A DNA stretch of 33,803 nucleotides from Desulfobacterales bacterium (GTDB lineage Bacteria; Desulfobacterota; Desulfobacteria; Desulfobacterales; JAFDHS01), in NCBI GenBank assembly GCA_030589165.1, contig JAUUWG010000006.1, positions 1-33,803 on the forward strand, read 5' to 3'. Below the pieces are notes generated by a model. That model saw only the letters and a program-made list of their open reading frames with translations. It ran no database searches and was not told the origin of the DNA. Positions 1 through 31,438 of this stretch are shown here, one piece after another. The stretch's first letter is position 1. Each line of letters opens with the position of its first letter. A program made the position numbers and the translations under genes.

Positions 1-709
1 TTAACTGGGGCTGTTCTCTTTGAGATTCCCGGGTAGCGCCATCAAGATATTTTTCCCGGATATATGCCTTAAAACCGGACAAACCTACAATGCCACTCTC
101 CTTTCCCATCTCCAGGGGGTTCTCTGCGTCCTTTTCAAGTCCCTTATATACAAATTGCCTGTATTTTCGTCTTCCTTCAATGGTATCCCCGTCAAAATTG
201 CCAAGGACTTTTGTGTAATTGACAAAATCAACCCGTGCTTTTAATTTTATGTATCCCGCAAAACTGCTGTATTTATATTCGGAAAGGATGTGGATTTTCT
301 CCTTAACTGTTTTGTCGGAATATTTTTTTACTCGCACCGGGTTCAGATGAATATAGCGGGACACTTCTTTTGAATAATTGTCGGCATCGATCAGAAAAGA
401 TTTGTATCGCCCCTGGTAAAGATGACCGGAGCGTTTGTGGCGACGGTTAAACGCAGATGTATAGGAAATGTTAAAATGACGCATGAATTCAGCCAGATTT
501 CCATCCGGTGTGGTTAAAAAGAGATGGAAGTGATTGGTCATACAGACATAAGCAAGCAATGATACATTATAAACACCTAAAGACACAGCAAGTTTTTCAA
601 GAAAAATGTCATAATCCGCATTATCCCTGTATATTTTTTGCCTTTCATTTCCTCGGGAAGTTACATGGTAGTAAGCCCCGGGATATTGTATACGAAGTGG
701 TCTGGCCAT
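1..709 (-). CDS. REP-associated tyrosine transposase (Y1_Tnp/IS200-like HUH family), 3' end outside window
   Basis: Reverse-strand translation from ATG at 709: MARPLRIQYPGAYYHVTSRGNERQKIYRDNADYDIFLEKLAVSLGVYNVSLLAYVCMTNHFHLFLTTPDGNLAEFMRHFNISYTSAFNRRHKRSGHLYQGRYKS; contains the HFH (HUH) motif and the HLYQGRYKS signature. No stop before the window edge, so it is missing from the ORF track. Confidence 0.9.
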   Translation of the reverse strand, partial: MARPLRIQYPGAYYHVTSRGNERQKIYRDNADYDIFLEKLAVSLGVYNVSLLAYVCMTNHFHLFLTTPDGNLAEFMRHFNISYTSAFNRRHKRSGHLYQGRYKSFLIDADNYSKEVSRYIHLNPVRVKKYSDKTVKEKIHILSEYKYSSFAGYIKLKARVDFVNYTKVLGNFDGDTIEGRRKYRQFVYKGLEKDAENPLEMGKESGIVGLSGFKAYIREKYLDGATRESQREQPQL

Positions 710-11299: not shown

Positions 11300-11881
11300 T
11301 CAGGTATTCTCCAACTCGATCCATTTTTTCACCTCAGGCGCCCGGTACGATTCAAATCTGTCGATCAACTTTTCCGGATTATCTTCGACAATCAACATGG
11401 AACGGGTCACCTCCTTGACAAACCGTTGACTTACGGCATGATTAATAAATTCGGCCAATTTGTCGTAGTACTGACATATATTGAGCAAACCACATGGTTT
11501 CCGGTGAATTCCGAGTTGCGCCCATGTCACGATTTCAAATAATTCCTCGATCGTTCCCAGACCTCCGGGCAAGGCGACAAATCCATCAGACAACTCAGCC
11601 ATGAGGGTTTTTCGTTCATGCATGGACCCCACGATTCTCAAGTCGGAAAGTCCGGCATGCGCTACCTCCTTGTCCACAATAACCTCCGGGATAACTCCGA
11701 TAACCTCCCCTCCTTGTTCAAGAACCGTATCGGCAATCACTCCCATCACCCCGATACTTGCGCCCCCATATACCAGACCGATATTTTTATCCACGAGAAC
11801 CTTGGCCAAGTGCTTTGCTCCCTGGGCATATTCGGGGCGGCTGCCGGTATTTGATCCGCAATATACACAAAGTCGATTCAC
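11300..11881 (-). CDS. LOG-family protein (TIGR00730, cytokinin riboside 5'-monophosphate phosphoribohydrolase-like)
   Basis: MNRLCVYCGSNTGSRPEYAQGAKHLAKVL...VYGGASIGVMG...PGGLGTIEELFE. Confidence 0.92.
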   Translation of the reverse strand: MNRLCVYCGSNTGSRPEYAQGAKHLAKVLVDKNIGLVYGGASIGVMGVIADTVLEQGGEVIGVIPEVIVDKEVAHAGLSDLRIVGSMHERKTLMAELSDGFVALPGGLGTIEELFEIVTWAQLGIHRKPCGLLNICQYYDKLAEFINHAVSQRFVKEVTRSMLIVEDNPEKLIDRFESYRAPEVKKWIELENT

Positions 11882-12093
11882 TACCTATCGCCTCCTTACA
11901 AATCCAAAGATTTTCAATATTCATTTTTGTCGAATTCCTTATAACACAAAGAAGACGGCCCCGACAAATTGCACACTTTTATCTTGAATACTCTTTAAGA
12001 AAAAGCCAACAAGAGAATATTTTTTGACAGTCCATGTTGAAATGAGCTACAAAATAAAACAAGGTAATTTTTTAACTTATCAATAAGGGTCAA

Positions 12094-12465
12094 CTACCCC
12101 TCCTGAATCATAGATTCAGAAGGGGCTTGTAAAAGCCCCGGTTGACTAGCCTCAGCTAAGGACAGAAGGTGAAACAGAGACTTCCGTTATCGGGCTACGT
12201 TATAAGCGAATACATAGGCACTCTGAGATATTCCGCACGTCTCAGACCCTGCGGCAAGTGATTAAACAATCTTTAAGAAGGGCAAAGATAGTGTTGCTTG
12301 TAAAAACCGCTTAATAACTTTGGCGATGCGGCTCTTACTGGTTTGGTAGTTCCAGGGAAAATATTTTTTATTTTCCACAAAAACTACCTTTTTTCTAAAC
12401 TCGTTAACTGAAAGGAGGCAGCATTCCTCCACGCCTGAATCAAAGATTCAGACGGGGTCTCCTGC
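12094..12465 (+). ncRNA. Candidate structured RNA element flanked by IS200/IS605-like subterminal hairpins (omegaRNA/HEARO-like hypothesis; no nuclease or transposase ORF)
   Basis: Paired direct-orientation hairpins: cccctcctgaatc-ata-gattcagaagggg (12097-12125) and cgcctgaatc-aaa-gattcagacg (about 12432-12454). Between them are several stems (ggggctt/aagcccc, tctgaga/tctcaga, gcggcaag/cttg..ccgc) and an intrinsic terminator. No ORF of 60 aa or more on either strand. Confidence 0.5.
12345..12394 (+). terminator. Intrinsic terminator inside the structured element
   Basis: ggtagtt-ccag-ggaaaata-ttttt-tattttcc-acaaa-aactacc-tttttt: nested 7-bp and 8-bp stems followed by T6. Confidence 0.75.
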
Positions 12466-12472
12466 TGTATTT

Positions 12473-14632
12473 ATGATGAAGATGAACTACACTAACAAAT
12501 ATCGTATATCACCTGTTTTATATATTCTCATACTGTGCACGTTTACAGTCGGCTTTCTCTTCACCCCCCCCTCTTTAAAAGCCCATGCCAAGGACATTTC
12601 TTTATCCTTAGCAGCCGATTCCTCTCTTGGAATTGATGATTTCATTGAAATTCTTCCCCCTACCCGAAAACAATCAAAAACCAATGTTGATATCGTCAAG
12701 CAGCTCGAAAAATACCATTACAAAGATCTGGAAATAGACGACCACGTATCATCCAAGGTATTCGATCGTTACCTGTCCGACCTTGACGGCAGACGAAGCT
12801 ATTTTTTTTCCGAAGATATCAAGGAATTTGAAGCCTACCGCTATCGTTTGGACAATGCGTTGAAAATCGGTGACCTCAAACCGGCTTTCATGATTTTCAA
12901 TCGTTACAGGCAACAGGTCGCTGAAAGACTTGCTTTCCTGGTCAACCGCATTGAAAAAGGCTTTGATGACCTGGATTTTGACATTGAAGAAAGCATAACC
13001 ATTAACAGGGAGAATGCACCCTGGCCGATAAATACGACCAAAATGGACGATTTATGGCGCAAGCGTCTGAAAAACGATATTCTGAACCTTAAATTAACCG
13101 GCAAACCATTGGATGAAATCCATAAATTACTCAAGCAACGTTATCGTAACCGGTTGAGCCGAATCCGCCAGACAGACAGCGAAGATGCCTTCAGAATTTA
13201 CATGAACGCATTTACACAAATCTATGACCCGCATACCCAATACTTTTCACCGCGTCTTTCGAAAAACTTCGATATAATGATGAGTTTGTCATTGCAAGGT
13301 ATCGGCGCTGTCCTGCAAAATAAAAACGAGTACACCCAAGTCCTTCGCCTGGTCCCGGCCGGTCCGGCGGATAAATCCGGGCAACTGAAGCCTGGAGACC
13401 GCATCGTGGGAGTAGGTCAGGGTAAAGATGGAGAAATTGTCAATGTCATCGGCTGGCGTCTTGACGACGTGGTGGAACTTATCCGCGGCCCCAAACAGAC
13501 CGTGGTGCGGTTGGAAATAATCCCTTCCGATATCGATGGTGATCACCCGACCAAAAAAATCATGATCACTCGAAACACCGTCAAACTTGAAGAACAAGCC
13601 GCACAAAAAAAGCTGGTCGAGCTCAAATACAAAGATCAAACCCATAAAATCGGCATCATCGAAATCCCAACCTTCTACATCGACTTCAAAGCCCTTCAAG
13701 CCGGTGAAGAAAATTACAAGAGTACCACACGTGATGTGCGCCGTCTGCTCAAGGAACTGATCGCTGAGAAAGTCGAGGGTATTATCATCGACTTGCGCGA
13801 CAATGGCGGGGGGGCACTTCAAGAAGCCAACTCTTTGACCGGACTCTTTATCAATAAAGGACCTACCGTTCAGATCCGTGAAAGCAACGGTCAAATCAGC
13901 GAACTTCGTGATCCGGATCCGGAAATTGTCTATGATGGTCCCTTGATTGTGTTGGTTAACCGCCTGAGTGCATCAGCTTCAGAAATTTTTGCGGGTGCCG
14001 TTCAAGACTATCAACGCGGTATTATCGTTGGTTCACAAACCTTCGGCAAAGGGACTGTTCAATCTCTGGAAGACCTCAGACAGGGCCAACTGAAACTTAC
14101 CCGGGCCAAGTTCTATCGCGTATCGGGAAAAAGCACACAGAACCAAGGAATCATACCAGATATCGTATACCCGACAATCTACGACATGAAAAAGATAGGC
14201 GAAAATGCACTTCCGGAAGCGCTTGCCTGGGATAAAATTCATCCTGCCCGCTACCAGCCCTGGCCGAATTTAGTATTATGGATTAAGCTGCTGGAGAGCC
14301 TTCACAAAAGCCGTATTAAAGATGACCCTGATTTTTCCTATCTGATCTCCGATATTGAGCGTTTAAACGAAGCAAGGCAAAAAACTGAAGTTTCGCTAAA
14401 CGAAGCGACCCGCAAGCGTGAACGTCAAGTATCCGAACAGAAGATGTTGGCTCTGGAGAATAAACGTCGAGCCATCAGGGGCTTAAAATTATTGAAAAAG
14501 ATATCTGACCTTGAGACAACTGATAACACGGAAGAAAACGAGGGAAAACCTGACCCGTTATTGGCTGAAAGCCAGTATATTCTTCTTGATCTCATATCAA
14601 TGGCACATCAAAAAGGATCTGTTCAGTACTGA
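12473..14632 (+). CDS. prc: Tail-specific (C-terminal processing) protease, S41A family, PDZ-containing
   Basis: N-terminal signal sequence, PDZ region (SLQGIGAVLQNKNEYTQVLRLVPAGPADKSGQLKPGDRIVGVGQG), and catalytic motifs (RLSASASEIFAGAVQDYQRGIIVGSQTFGKGTVQ). Confidence 0.93.
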   Translation: MMKMNYTNKYRISPVLYILILCTFTVGFLFTPPSLKAHAKDISLSLAADSSLGIDDFIEILPPTRKQSKTNVDIVKQLEKYHYKDLEIDDHVSSKVFDRYLSDLDGRRSYFFSEDIKEFEAYRYRLDNALKIGDLKPAFMIFNRYRQQVAERLAFLVNRIEKGFDDLDFDIEESITINRENAPWPINTTKMDDLWRKRLKNDILNLKLTGKPLDEIHKLLKQRYRNRLSRIRQTDSEDAFRIYMNAFTQIYDPHTQYFSPRLSKNFDIMMSLSLQGIGAVLQNKNEYTQVLRLVPAGPADKSGQLKPGDRIVGVGQGKDGEIVNVIGWRLDDVVELIRGPKQTVVRLEIIPSDIDGDHPTKKIMITRNTVKLEEQAAQKKLVELKYKDQTHKIGIIEIPTFYIDFKALQAGEENYKSTTRDVRRLLKELIAEKVEGIIIDLRDNGGGALQEANSLTGLFINKGPTVQIRESNGQISELRDPDPEIVYDGPLIVLVNRLSASASEIFAGAVQDYQRGIIVGSQTFGKGTVQSLEDLRQGQLKLTRAKFYRVSGKSTQNQGIIPDIVYPTIYDMKKIGENALPEALAWDKIHPARYQPWPNLVLWIKLLESLHKSRIKDDPDFSYLISDIERLNEARQKTEVSLNEATRKRERQVSEQKMLALENKRRAIRGLKLLKKISDLETTDNTEENEGKPDPLLAESQYILLDLISMAHQKGSVQY

Positions 14633-15190: not shown

Positions 15191-16845
15191 TATCTGCTGA
15201 TTTTCTGTCAAATTAAGAGCATCTGCTCATTTAGCTCTTTGAAAATTTCCGTTTTGCGTTTTGAATGATGCTTGGAAAAACTTATTTGGAGTGCAGTCTG
15301 TTTTCCAAAGCTGTTTTATCGTATTTCGCGCACACTTATCCATCCGGCGAACTTCCGGTGATCATCAGAGGACTGCAATAAATGTGAATCAGCCCAACAA
15401 TCCCATTTTCATCAAGCTTTCTTCGCTGATTTCTTCATCATTATAAAGCTGAAGGAACTTTTTAAGATTGTATGCGGTTTGACATAAGAGAGACCATATG
15501 CGGTCTCCATCAAATCCCCGGTAAAGACTGCGACCAAAGCCCCGGATATTCTTCGCAACTGCAATAAATCCTTCCGTTGCGGAACGGGCTTTTCGGCAAA
15601 AATCTCGTTTTTCTTCGCAAACATCGGAGCTTTTGCCGAGAAAAATGTGTAGCGTGCCTTCGGGTATTTTTCGATTTATTCGGCTTCGGTATCCATTGTC
15701 ACCGATTGCATGTTCAGGAAGCCCTTTCATTCTTTCTTCGAATAGTCCCGCTGTTTTTGGCCACAGGATTTTGTCGTTTGGTTTTCCTATGAAATTTTCC
15801 ATTGTAACCATAAAGCCTTGACGGTTGAATGATATCTCAAGGGTAGTTCCGAATTCACAGTCTGGATGTTTTTTACCTTTCTTGATTGGTCGGGCATCCG
15901 GTTCGTCGAGGGAAACGATCCGGTTTTCAATATGTTTCTCTCCCTCAAGTTTTTGTTCACTCTGCTTTTTAAGCAAACTCAAGAGATCCAGAAGTTGCCG
16001 GGCTTTTTCTACTTCTTTATCCGAGGCTTCGAAATTTTGGACGATTTCCTCGAAAATTTTGAACGCATCGGCAAATATCGACATAAATTCAAAAAAATAT
16101 CTAAAAATCTCATCTTTCTTTTTGTTCAGGTTGTACTCACGCCAAAGTTTTTGAAGATACTGTTCATCCCACCAGAAATCGATATGATAACGTTCAGCAA
16201 ATTGCTTCATTTTACCAAAGGCCTTAAAAATTAATCCGATATCTGTGGGATAAATGATATTGTTTGGCAAGACCGTCGAATCAATCAGCATGCTGTCCCC
16301 ATTGATAACGCCAGCAACACGTAACACGTTAAAAATTGAGGATTCAATAACTTCCATACCCTTGACACCGAAACGTTTCCGCAATTTAATCAGATTGCTG
16401 GGATGCATGAACTTGTTCACAGATTTATCGGGAACATTGCAAAAATATTGAATATAACGATTTTCCTTGACCTGATCAATTACTACCCGGTCACTGAGCA
16501 AGCGAAGTTTCGCAACCATGAAAATGGCTACAATTGTCCGGAGGGGGGTGCCGATTCTTCCCTGTTTATCGTTATAATAGGGAACCAATAGGTCGATTAT
16601 TCTTTGCCAAGGTATAATCTTGCGCAAAATGACAAGTTCCTTCGTTGGGTCATTGATATTGTACTTTACCCATTCGTCGGTGAAAGCCTCCGTAATTTTT
16701 TTTCGATCATCGCATATCCTCAGTTCATGGCCTTGAACCTCATATAAGAAGCGTAAAGCACGTTAAATTTAAATTTTGTAAAATACCATGTGACAGTATG
16801 TAATAAAAGCTTTGAAGCCGATAAAATAGAAAATCAGCAGATACT
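15189..16845 (-). mobile_element. Complete insertion sequence of about 1657 bp with 18-bp perfect TIRs and candidate 4-bp TSD (ACTT)
   Basis: Left end agtatctgctgattttct (15189-15206); right end reads agtatctgctgattttct in reverse complement (16828-16845); ACTT at 15185-15188 and 16846-16849. Confidence 0.82.
15389..16627 (-). CDS. IS transposase (DDE family with DUF772-like N-terminus; IS5/ISNCY-like)
   Basis: MRKIIPWQRIIDLLVPYYNDKQGRIGTPLRTIVAIFMVAKL...DSTVLPNNIIYPTDIGL...GDNGYRSRINRKIPEG...; N-terminal coding probably extends upstream (see findings). Confidence 0.85.
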   Translation of the reverse strand: MRKIIPWQRIIDLLVPYYNDKQGRIGTPLRTIVAIFMVAKLRLLSDRVVIDQVKENRYIQYFCNVPDKSVNKFMHPSNLIKLRKRFGVKGMEVIESSIFNVLRVAGVINGDSMLIDSTVLPNNIIYPTDIGLIFKAFGKMKQFAERYHIDFWWDEQYLQKLWREYNLNKKKDEIFRYFFEFMSIFADAFKIFEEIVQNFEASDKEVEKARQLLDLLSLLKKQSEQKLEGEKHIENRIVSLDEPDARPIKKGKKHPDCEFGTTLEISFNRQGFMVTMENFIGKPNDKILWPKTAGLFEERMKGLPEHAIGDNGYRSRINRKIPEGTLHIFLGKSSDVCEEKRDFCRKARSATEGFIAVAKNIRGFGRSLYRGFDGDRIWSLLCQTAYNLKKFLQLYNDEEISEESLMKMGLLG

Positions 16846-29559: not shown

Positions 29560-31438
29560 GATGGCCTCGTAAAAAGTCGGGTGTGATATGAGTCAAGTTG
29601 AAGCACATTTATCATATTAACACTCATTATATTCTGAAAGAGTCAATACTTACGAAATTTTGCTCTTTGATAAACAAAAAAATAGTATCCCGGACGGTTT
29701 TATGCTGCACAGAGACACTCTTCCGGCATCATTGCCGCTTTTCTGATGACAGCAGCCCTGAAAATATTTACTCCCAAGGCCTTTAAGGTTGCACTGAACT
29801 TTACTGCTTTCAGGCCTCGCACTCGAAGATGTTTGACACCGGTTCGTCTGTCGTACTCAGACATGGTGGCTTCAACACCTGCACGCCACCTGTAACGATC
29901 TTTGAACTTGTCTGACTGTTCGTATATTCTACGCTTTACTATTCGCATTTGTTTATCAGAAAACCGGAGGTAGTAATATTTCTTCCCCTTTTTAACTGGG
30001 CAGTTCAATAGTTTAGGGCAGTTCTGGCAATGATCTGAAGCAAAACCGATGCTGACTTTTTTCTTCTTTTTGACTTTTGAGGGGGCATGACCCTGTGGGC
30101 AGGCAAGAACTTCGCCTTTTTCTGAAATTTGGAAATCAGCAAGGCTCAGTTTGTCTTCCTTGACTGAACCCATGGTCGGAGCAATAAGCTCTACGTCATG
30201 TTCTTTTGCACGTTCACAGTTATCATCGCTGCCGTAAAGGGAGTCAGCTGTCAGTTCTTTTGGTTTTAGGTTTTGTTTTTCTGTGGACTCGATTGCCGGA
30301 ATAAGAGCATTGGCATCACTGTTATGAGCAGGTTCAACATTCACATGTGTTATCAGGCTAAGGGTTTTTCCCTTTTGTTCTTCATCTTCACAGAATGTTT
30401 CCATGACTTGAACCTGGTAGCCTTGACCTTTGTGACCGCTGTAGGTTGCATCAGGATCAGAAGGATTTTGAAGAGAATCAAAAGCGATCTCTTTCGGCTT
30501 TTTCAGCTCAACTGGATTGTCTTTATCATCGGTAAGATTGCATTGATCGTTCAGAACCCTTTCAAGTAGTTTGTAACTATACATGGCCGCTATTTCTGGG
30601 CATTCTTTGAACTGTTGTACCAGATCAAACAGGTCTTTGCTCACCTCTGTGAGGGTTTTTCTCGATTCAGATGGTTTGACTCTGGAAAAACACCCAAGAG
30701 AGTCTTTGGACAGATATTTGTCGATAACTTTTTCATCTATGGTGTTGAGGTAGTCTTGATGGCCTCGTTTCAAGTTCACTAAAAACTTGTGAATGCTTTC
30801 AGAGAAGATGCCGATTCGACCCAGACGCCGCATGTTTGATTTGATATGGACCGAGTCAATTCGCTGTTTATCGATATTAACGTTGAAAACTTGCGCCAGT
30901 TTGTCTGTGCCAGCTTTGAAAATATCGTCCTCAAGATTATTTTGAGCAACGATATTTCGATTATTCCATAGTGTTTTCAATGATATGTATTTGGCATCAT
31001 CGGTCTCTTCGCAAATATTGAGTGAATAGTGCCATTGAATATTAAAGGCATATTGCTGTACTGTTTCTTCGTCGGTGAGATCGAAAGTCTGCTGAAGAAT
31101 AAGAGCTCCCAGCATGGAATAAAGTTCCTTCGTCGGTCGGCCGAAAGTGGTGTTAAAATGCTTGACGACCTTATCGACAGGAATTGAGGGCAGTATTTGC
31201 TCGCGAAACAGACCGGGCCATCCGGCGTCAAGCATCTTCCGTCTTTTGGGAGTAAGAAAATCCCAGGGATCGAAAATGTTAAGCTGATTCGGATTGTTTA
31301 CTTTGATCATTATTTTGCCTTTAATGGTTTGATTATTTAAGCTTTTTATATCAAACCGTAGGAAAAAAGGCAAGAGTTATTATTATATTTTTGTAATTAT
31401 TTCAAAGAGATACATTTTTGACTTTTTACGAGACCATC
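29560..31438 (-). mobile_element. Complete IS1182-like insertion sequence (1879 bp) with 19-bp TIRs and 6-bp TSD (AAAGTT)
   Basis: gatggcctcgtaaaaagtc (29560-29578) versus reverse complement gatggtctcgtaaaaagtc (31420-31438), 18/19 identical; AAAGTT at 29554-29559 and 31439-31444. Confidence 0.87.
29700..31373 (-). CDS. IS1182-family transposase (DUF772 + DDE)
   Basis: MIKVNNPNQLNIFDPWDFLTPKRRKMLDAGWPGLFREQILPSIPVDKVVKHFNTTFGRPTKELYSMLGALILQQTFDLTDEETVQQYAFNIQWHYSLNI...; likely start is the internal MIKVNN (about 31313). Confidence 0.9.
   Translation of the reverse strand: MPFFLRFDIKSLNNQTIKGKIMIKVNNPNQLNIFDPWDFLTPKRRKMLDAGWPGLFREQILPSIPVDKVVKHFNTTFGRPTKELYSMLGALILQQTFDLTDEETVQQYAFNIQWHYSLNICEETDDAKYISLKTLWNNRNIVAQNNLEDDIFKAGTDKLAQVFNVNIDKQRIDSVHIKSNMRRLGRIGIFSESIHKFLVNLKRGHQDYLNTIDEKVIDKYLSKDSLGCFSRVKPSESRKTLTEVSKDLFDLVQQFKECPEIAAMYSYKLLERVLNDQCNLTDDKDNPVELKKPKEIAFDSLQNPSDPDATYSGHKGQGYQVQVMETFCEDEEQKGKTLSLITHVNVEPAHNSDANALIPAIESTEKQNLKPKELTADSLYGSDDNCERAKEHDVELIAPTMGSVKEDKLSLADFQISEKGEVLACPQGHAPSKVKKKKKVSIGFASDHCQNCPKLLNCPVKKGKKYYYLRFSDKQMRIVKRRIYEQSDKFKDRYRWRAGVEATMSEYDRRTGVKHLRVRGLKAVKFSATLKALGVNIFRAAVIRKAAMMPEECLCAA

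Follow-up and report, generated by a model that had tools for sequence, protein, structure and literature searches.

A HEARO (omegaRNA) element without an IscB gene at the start of prc in a Desulfobacterales genome

The element at the prc start

The window, i.e. the whole stretch of DNA analyzed here, covers 33,803 nucleotides of a Desulfobacterales bacterium (contig JAUUWG010000006.1, assembly GCA_030589165.1). The element described lies in the 5′ untranslated region of prc, between a divergent LOG-family gene and the prc start. The search of the window by cmscan gave HEARO (RF02033) as a full-length match at 12089-12338 of the plus strand (model positions 1-211, E-value 5e-24, 117.9 bits against a gathering cut-off of 83), and this was the sole Rfam match above cut-off in the window. 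The omegaRNA of IscB is the HEARO RNA (PMC9755519). The features of the locus are as follows.

12073-12088, plus strand: predicted omegaRNA guide in the left flank, TAACTTATCAATAAGG, lying 5′ of HEARO model position 1
12089-12475, plus strand: ORF-less IscB-type (IS200/IS605-like) element of 387 bp, with boundaries taken from filled/empty pairs at related copies and from sibling copies in the same draft genome (G000)
12089-12338, plus strand: HEARO/omegaRNA scaffold, from cmscan with RF02033
12089-12156, plus strand: left end common to IscB-bearing elements, 95% identical over 68 nt to locus L001 (G000:C214)
12345-12394, plus strand: 3′ double hairpin with T6, an intrinsic-terminator-like module where IscB would be, from fold and covariation
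12404-12475, plus strand: right end, about 90% identical to the right ends 3′ of the IscB C-terminus on C230 and C231
12434-12457, plus strand: subterminal hairpin of the right end, second copy of the direct repeat, from repeat comparison
12473-12475, plus strand: ATG contributed by the element and in frame with the start of the gene itself; GTTTATG stands on the element side of related filled/empty junctions
12476-12480, plus strand: ATGAA, the target/TAM motif, in which the right flank has its first codon; it follows the right end in 13/13 copies of the genus and 31/32 copies of G092 (a genome from a different family)
12476-14632, plus strand: Prc/tail-specific protease gene, the host gene (Pfam TSP_NTD, PDZ, Peptidase_S41 and DUF3340)

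A direct repeat of 29 nt (86% identical, spacing 332) forms the two hairpins at 12102-12125 and 12434-12457, exactly where the original prediction, made from the letters of the sequence, had placed them. At the left end the first hairpin belongs to the initial stem region of the HEARO, and the second lies subterminally in the right end; such imperfect hairpins are present at both ends of the element and are common to other copies. The left-end hairpins fold at -27.5 kcal/mol (z -5.3), and the region 12061-12400 has a fold z of -3.6. The interval had been described as free of ORFs, which is borne out, as no stop-to-stop frame in 12089-12475 is longer than 61 codons and no IscB ORF follows the HEARO. 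The proposed nuclease-less omegaRNA/HEARO-like locus is likewise supported by the RF02033 score and by ends common to IscB-bearing copies, and the cmscan search that had been suggested found HEARO far above the cut-off. The proposed limits had to be corrected on both sides: the right end reaches 12475 and not 12465, and both the RNA and the element begin at 12089 with the guide ending at 12088, where a guide flank ending at about 12096 had been supposed, GTCAAC being the 5′ strand of the first stem. Compared with its siblings the window copy has small stem lesions (CAGAAG/CTTCCG against CGGAAG/CTTCCG in C217), and because of these it may be losing function.

Other transposase genes are also found in the window. 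A Y1_Tnp-family frame similar to REP-associated tyrosine transposases runs off the window edge (2-709, minus strand) and has no evident link to the element. Two genes for DUF772-type transposases, of which one has DDE domains, are located at 15389-16627 and 29700-31373 (both minus strand) and are unrelated to it.

Related copies, insertion sites and start codons

The draft genome of the window (2.17 Mb, 247 contigs, about 65% complete) has 15 HEARO matches, of which 12 are above cut-off, together with IscB parts on six contigs, all at contig ends. Among these parts, which answer the suggested search for IscB, C111 has an intact IscB with a frame of 452 aa carrying RRXRR (PF14239) and HNH (PF01844). 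Right halves of the window type (HEARO, hairpin and right end) were tracked on C144, C145 and C170, where they end at contig breaks, and a left half on C217, which gives at least three further copies of the exact type. The word "orphan" in the original prediction is therefore right for the locus and wrong for the genome. The same module also stands upstream of unrelated genes (Sir2 and a 4Fe-4S protein).

Relatives bearing IscB are C211 with C231, C214 with C230, and C319 of the congener G001 (IscB of 417 aa). On C214, whose left end is the one compared above, the IscB ORF begins about 27 nt after the HEARO. The HEARO body of the window element differs from that of the IscB element with the same ends, and for this reason its recognition in trans by IscB is not assured. 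Reduced derivatives also occur, namely a copy of about 60 bp with fused left and right ends (C130), 10 nt of left end with a right end (C176) and a solo right end (C116). At a further locus, L015 (G000:C234), a HEARO that is truncated right before ATGAATAAATTT lies at the apparent start of psd, and a solo right end lies at the pssA start just downstream.

Y1_Tnp genes are present in the genome, and no TnpA gene with the ends of the element was found in its roughly 65% complete sequence. A left-end match near one TnpA gene (G092:C12) belongs to a separate HEARO element. The right-end pattern has no copy in viral contigs, and its scan over whole-species genomes, in which records of the own genome were possibly left out, returned only the congener (JAFDHS01, "Deltaproteobacteria bacterium isolate Meg22_1214_Bin_289").

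Comparison of filled and empty sites at related copies, between the draft genome and the congener, showed that the elements insert exactly 5′ of ATGA(A) and leave the target unduplicated. At tadA the filled left junction reads ...GAGAAAGCAAACA|GTCAAC (C211) and the filled right junction ...GTTTATG|ATGAACTATGAA (C231), the two contigs being joined by inference, and the empty site in G001:C58 reads ...GAGAAAGCAAAA|ATGAATTATGAA. For one copy of the window type the right junction is available (C144, ...GTTTATG|ATGAAAATATTAACC against G001:C292, ...GGCAATCAC|ATGAAAATATTAACC), and another pair gives the left junction (G001:C143, ...AAAAAGGAAAGG|GTCAAC against G000:C176, ...AAAAAGGAAAGG|ATGATCATAG). 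The suggested check for empty sites thus succeeded for related copies; the prc region of the window is absent from G001, and the window's own empty site would read ...TTATCAATAAGG|ATGAAGATGAAC. At glnD different HEARO elements occupy the identical site in two species, an IscB element in the draft genome (C214 and C230, presumably one element given that the left flank matches) and an ORF-less one in G001:C120, which suggests replacement or repeated targeting. Overall, ATGAA stands next to the right end in 44 of the 45 right ends scored.

The right end stands exactly at a start codon in 29 of these 45 cases (9/13 in the genus and 20/32 in G092), and the genus sites include prc, dnaN, tadA, pssA, glnD and Sir2. 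In the scoring a start counted when its frame had about 90 codons or more, and the gene identities were read by eye from the protein sequences; in G092 there were 33 sites with 20 starts, of which L238 was dropped after inspection as a chance match without an element end, leaving 32. As background, the share of non-coding-or-start ATGAA sites that are starts was 6/28 (21%) in the window with hand-picked genes and 11/59 (19%) in G092 pieces with rough ORF calls and starts allowed up to 20 codons in. By these crude numbers the ATGAA motif and the avoidance of genes do not by themselves account for the bias. One-sided Fisher tests gave P values of 0.005 (genus) and 4e-5 (G092), to be read with small backgrounds, copies that share history within a genome and several cut-offs that were free to choose. 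The genus pattern was spotted before it was counted, and the 20 newly fetched G092 sites are the nearest to an independent check. Placement on start codons is a clear trend and not a measured preference.

The genome G092, from the same order and a different family, is 99% complete and has 58 HEAROs above cut-off, of which the match tables show 34 with IscB just downstream and 24 without. The downstream sequence of 20 of these 24 was inspected, and in about 16 of them no IscB start follows the HEARO. C12, C233 and C244 proved to be IscB-type copies cut by the contig end and C32 an internally deleted IscB copy; because inspection reclassified these four, the number 24 is an upper bound. On these counts ORF-less HEAROs are frequent in the order. 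The best-scoring HEAROs of G092 are ORF-less copies, with 157-159 bits. The IscB expansion there is very large, with more than 20 near-identical IscB copies of 443 aa beside the 58 HEAROs. In G089, HEAROs are followed by short frames of about 97-142 aa holding only the IscB N-terminus (PLMP and part of RuvC-I), for example at C144:61595-61792 (L174), C136:17998, C644 and C1057, with a similar C-terminal tail IGKASIDTVSKYIESQG; these may represent a miniature IscB that recurs or a deletion derivative that is spreading.

The 3′ hairpin and the right end

In the place of IscB the window has a double hairpin with the outer stem GGTAGTT/AACTACC (12345-12351/12382-12388), an inner hairpin at 12356-12376 and T6 at 12389-12394. 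A nested hairpin ending in T6 had been predicted and is real, with a fold of -16.6 kcal/mol and z of -3.4, and none of 200 shuffles was as stable. The pattern of an intrinsic terminator, a stable hairpin followed directly by a T-run, was found at 12345-12394; a simple terminator scanner did not call the double hairpin, presumably because the hairpin is nested.

Other ORF-less elements have, 3′ of the HEARO, hairpins built on this plan: an outer stem, a CCAG-like bulge, an inner hairpin and an ACAAA-like bulge. A second ORF-less subfamily of the genus has AGGCTT/AAGCCT and a T-run in most copies (C101, C33, G001:C380 and C31), and the ORF-less copies of G092 have the outer stems GTAGAGTT/AACTCTAC, TTAAGGT and TGGCAGTT/AACTGCCA without a T-run. 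In an alignment of 15 ORF-less sequences from two bacterial families, standard pairs fill 87.5% of the outer-stem cells. Covariation in the outer stem is 0.604; shuffles give 0.222 +/- 0.041 and slid controls do not exceed 0.136. The 15 hairpins amount to about five distinct stem versions and not 15 independent events, and their choice by resemblance to the plan favours the covariation result. Two measures, the pairs changed on both sides and the further pair types, were no higher than in shuffles, and the result for the hairpin arms is drawn from the alignment count and the fold.

The inner hairpin in the AGGCTT subfamily and in G092 matches the IscB start region of full elements (acttgcgagtatttgtc), and these ORF-less elements therefore look like internal deletions with a remodelled IscB start. 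The architecture of the window type is consistent with the same origin, which may apply to it also. A third type of terminator-like hairpin, GGCATAT/ATATGCC with TTTT, follows many ORF-less HEAROs of G092.

The right end of the window has AAAGGAG at 12411-12417, an outer stem of GCAGCA (12418-12423) and TGCTGT (12463-12468), an inner hairpin and ATTT-ATG. In right ends of the genus and of G092, AAAGGAG or a similar sequence usually stands before a GCGGCA/TGCCGC stem. The 3′ arm of this stem is separated from ATG by 4-5 nt, and in most copies the stem is the predicted minimum-energy fold. Relative to this consensus the window stem has one two-sided change and one G-U, and the minimum-energy fold of the window right end is a different form, 1.5 kcal/mol lower than the stem form. 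Among the 15 listed right-end copies a stem mismatch occurs in four (G001:C225, C144, C231 and G001:C319) and GGAG or GGAA is missing in two (C231 and C234); one right-end alignment that failed to register B-type stems with the others was excluded from counting, and the idea of a ribosome-binding site in the right end arose from inspecting the same folds. The stem could set AAAGGAG 4-7 nt from the start codon, possibly allowing translation of the disrupted gene. A Shine-Dalgarno sequence bridged by a hairpin has a precedent in gene 38 of phage T4.

Interpretation and comparison with known systems

The HEARO identity of the locus, its common ends, the multicopy mobility of its family and the target motif are established. 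The window locus is probably a non-autonomous, IscB-less derivative of ISC (IS200/IS605-like) elements, which carries only the omegaRNA, is presumably moved by a TnpA and would use IscB in trans. The absence of IscB here, its presence elsewhere in the genome and the covarying 3′ hairpin are also plain observations. The PATE-like derivative acting in trans that the original prediction had offered is the best reading of them.

An unlikely alternative is that the element spreads as a dead MITE, its ends being bound by TnpA, and that the HEARO is a relic without guide function. In its favour are the shortened and fused derivatives (C130, C176 and C116) and the minor stem lesions of the window copy; against this, the HEARO covers the model in full (211 positions), the ORF-less copies of G092 score best in that genome, and the 3′ hairpin covaries across families, which is unexpected for a relic. 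It is far less probable that the element has become an exapted regulator, in which the RNA and terminator would control prc by attenuation or repress a chromosomal target via IscB. Its placement in the prc 5′ untranslated region with a terminator-like hairpin before the gene would suit this, but the same module stands before unrelated genes, as expected for a mobile element, the guide has no second target in the genome, and the locus has no sign of conservation. The reading as an ordinary leader or riboswitch that belongs to the protease gene, with no tie to mobile elements, has the position in its favour and can practically be dismissed, since HEARO is the sole Rfam match over cut-off and the multiple copies with common ends and the sibling empty sites refute it.

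The following mechanism is proposed for the non-autonomous omegaRNA element, where transcription, termination, loading in trans, guide activity, TnpA action in trans and translational rescue are what we infer. The element, composed in order of left end, omegaRNA, terminator-like double hairpin and right end, would have been inserted by single-strand "peel-and-paste" exactly 5′ of the ATGAA overlapping the prc start. Transcription would enter from the prc 5′ region and pass through the guide; no sigma-70 promoter reached the scan threshold in 11880-12600, and a weak TTGACA-18-TACAAA at 12025-12054 was spotted by eye only. The RNA would have the flank-derived guide (12073-12088) at its 5′ end, the length of 16 nt being taken as usual for IscB guides; the HEARO scaffold would come next, with an end at T6 (12394). 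It would load onto IscB from another element of the genome, and the complex would cut the empty site (guide and ATGAA), so that excised copies could then be repaired from a filled copy. The search for guide matches, which had also been suggested, returned only the occupied site itself: the guide with ATGA, at up to 3 mismatches, has no other match in the draft genome, of which a third is missing, or in the congener. TnpA would act in trans to move the element, and AAAGGAG with the right-end stem near the start codon could keep prc translated.

We also put forward, tentatively and with rather more doubt than confidence, that these elements form, in this bacterial order, a class of omegaRNA-only elements serving as stand-alone guide-RNA genes. 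In this class the IscB start would have become a covarying 3′ hairpin, insertion would fall on start codons with the right end as a portable ribosome-binding site, a shared IscB would do all homing in trans, and insertion even at essential genes would be tolerated. In the partial coverage of the literature available to us, neither a dedicated 3′ hairpin of ORF-less HEARO elements nor insertion on start codons together with a ribosome-binding site in the right end was reported. Should the guide RNA function with IscB encoded elsewhere, a single nuclease would serve many tiny elements, each needing only the scaffold and its own flank as guide. This, if true, would be a natural step from a transposon with one element and one guide to many guides with one nuclease, as in CRISPR-Cas9. 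Placement on start codons and the possible right-end ribosome-binding site would explain spread at low cost in compact genomes, and the covarying 3′ hairpins would make for naturally minimal omegaRNA genes that lack a nuclease and have a defined 3′ end.

ORF-less HEAROs are themselves already known; they were reportedly described by Weinberg et al. in 2009, with integration at ATGA/GTGA. A downstream HNH/IscB ORF is typical of HEARO and is not required, as RF02033 is defined by the RNA. The window element resembles the HEARO/omegaRNA of IscB in its full-length covariance match, the guide position at the 5′ flank and ATGA(A) on the right flank, and differs in having, instead of an IscB ORF, the covarying double hairpin (with a T-run in the genus). 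The IscB-bearing ISC elements of the same genome and the congener share its ends (left about 95% and right about 90% identical) and the ATGAA target, whereas they carry the IscB ORF and another HEARO body, the window element being 387 bp. Stand-alone, trans-acting omegaRNAs are said to have been reported with IscB by Altae-Tran et al. in 2021, and like these the window has an omegaRNA locus without an adjacent nuclease and IscB elsewhere in the genome; compared with that report, the element here stands apart as mobile DNA in which both ends are defined, with several copies, sibling filled and empty sites and a dedicated 3′ hairpin. PATEs are usually described as carrying only ends, and the window element is like the PATEs and MITEs of IS200/IS605 in having ends without genes and presumably being moved by TnpA in trans; unlike them, it keeps a complete guide RNA.
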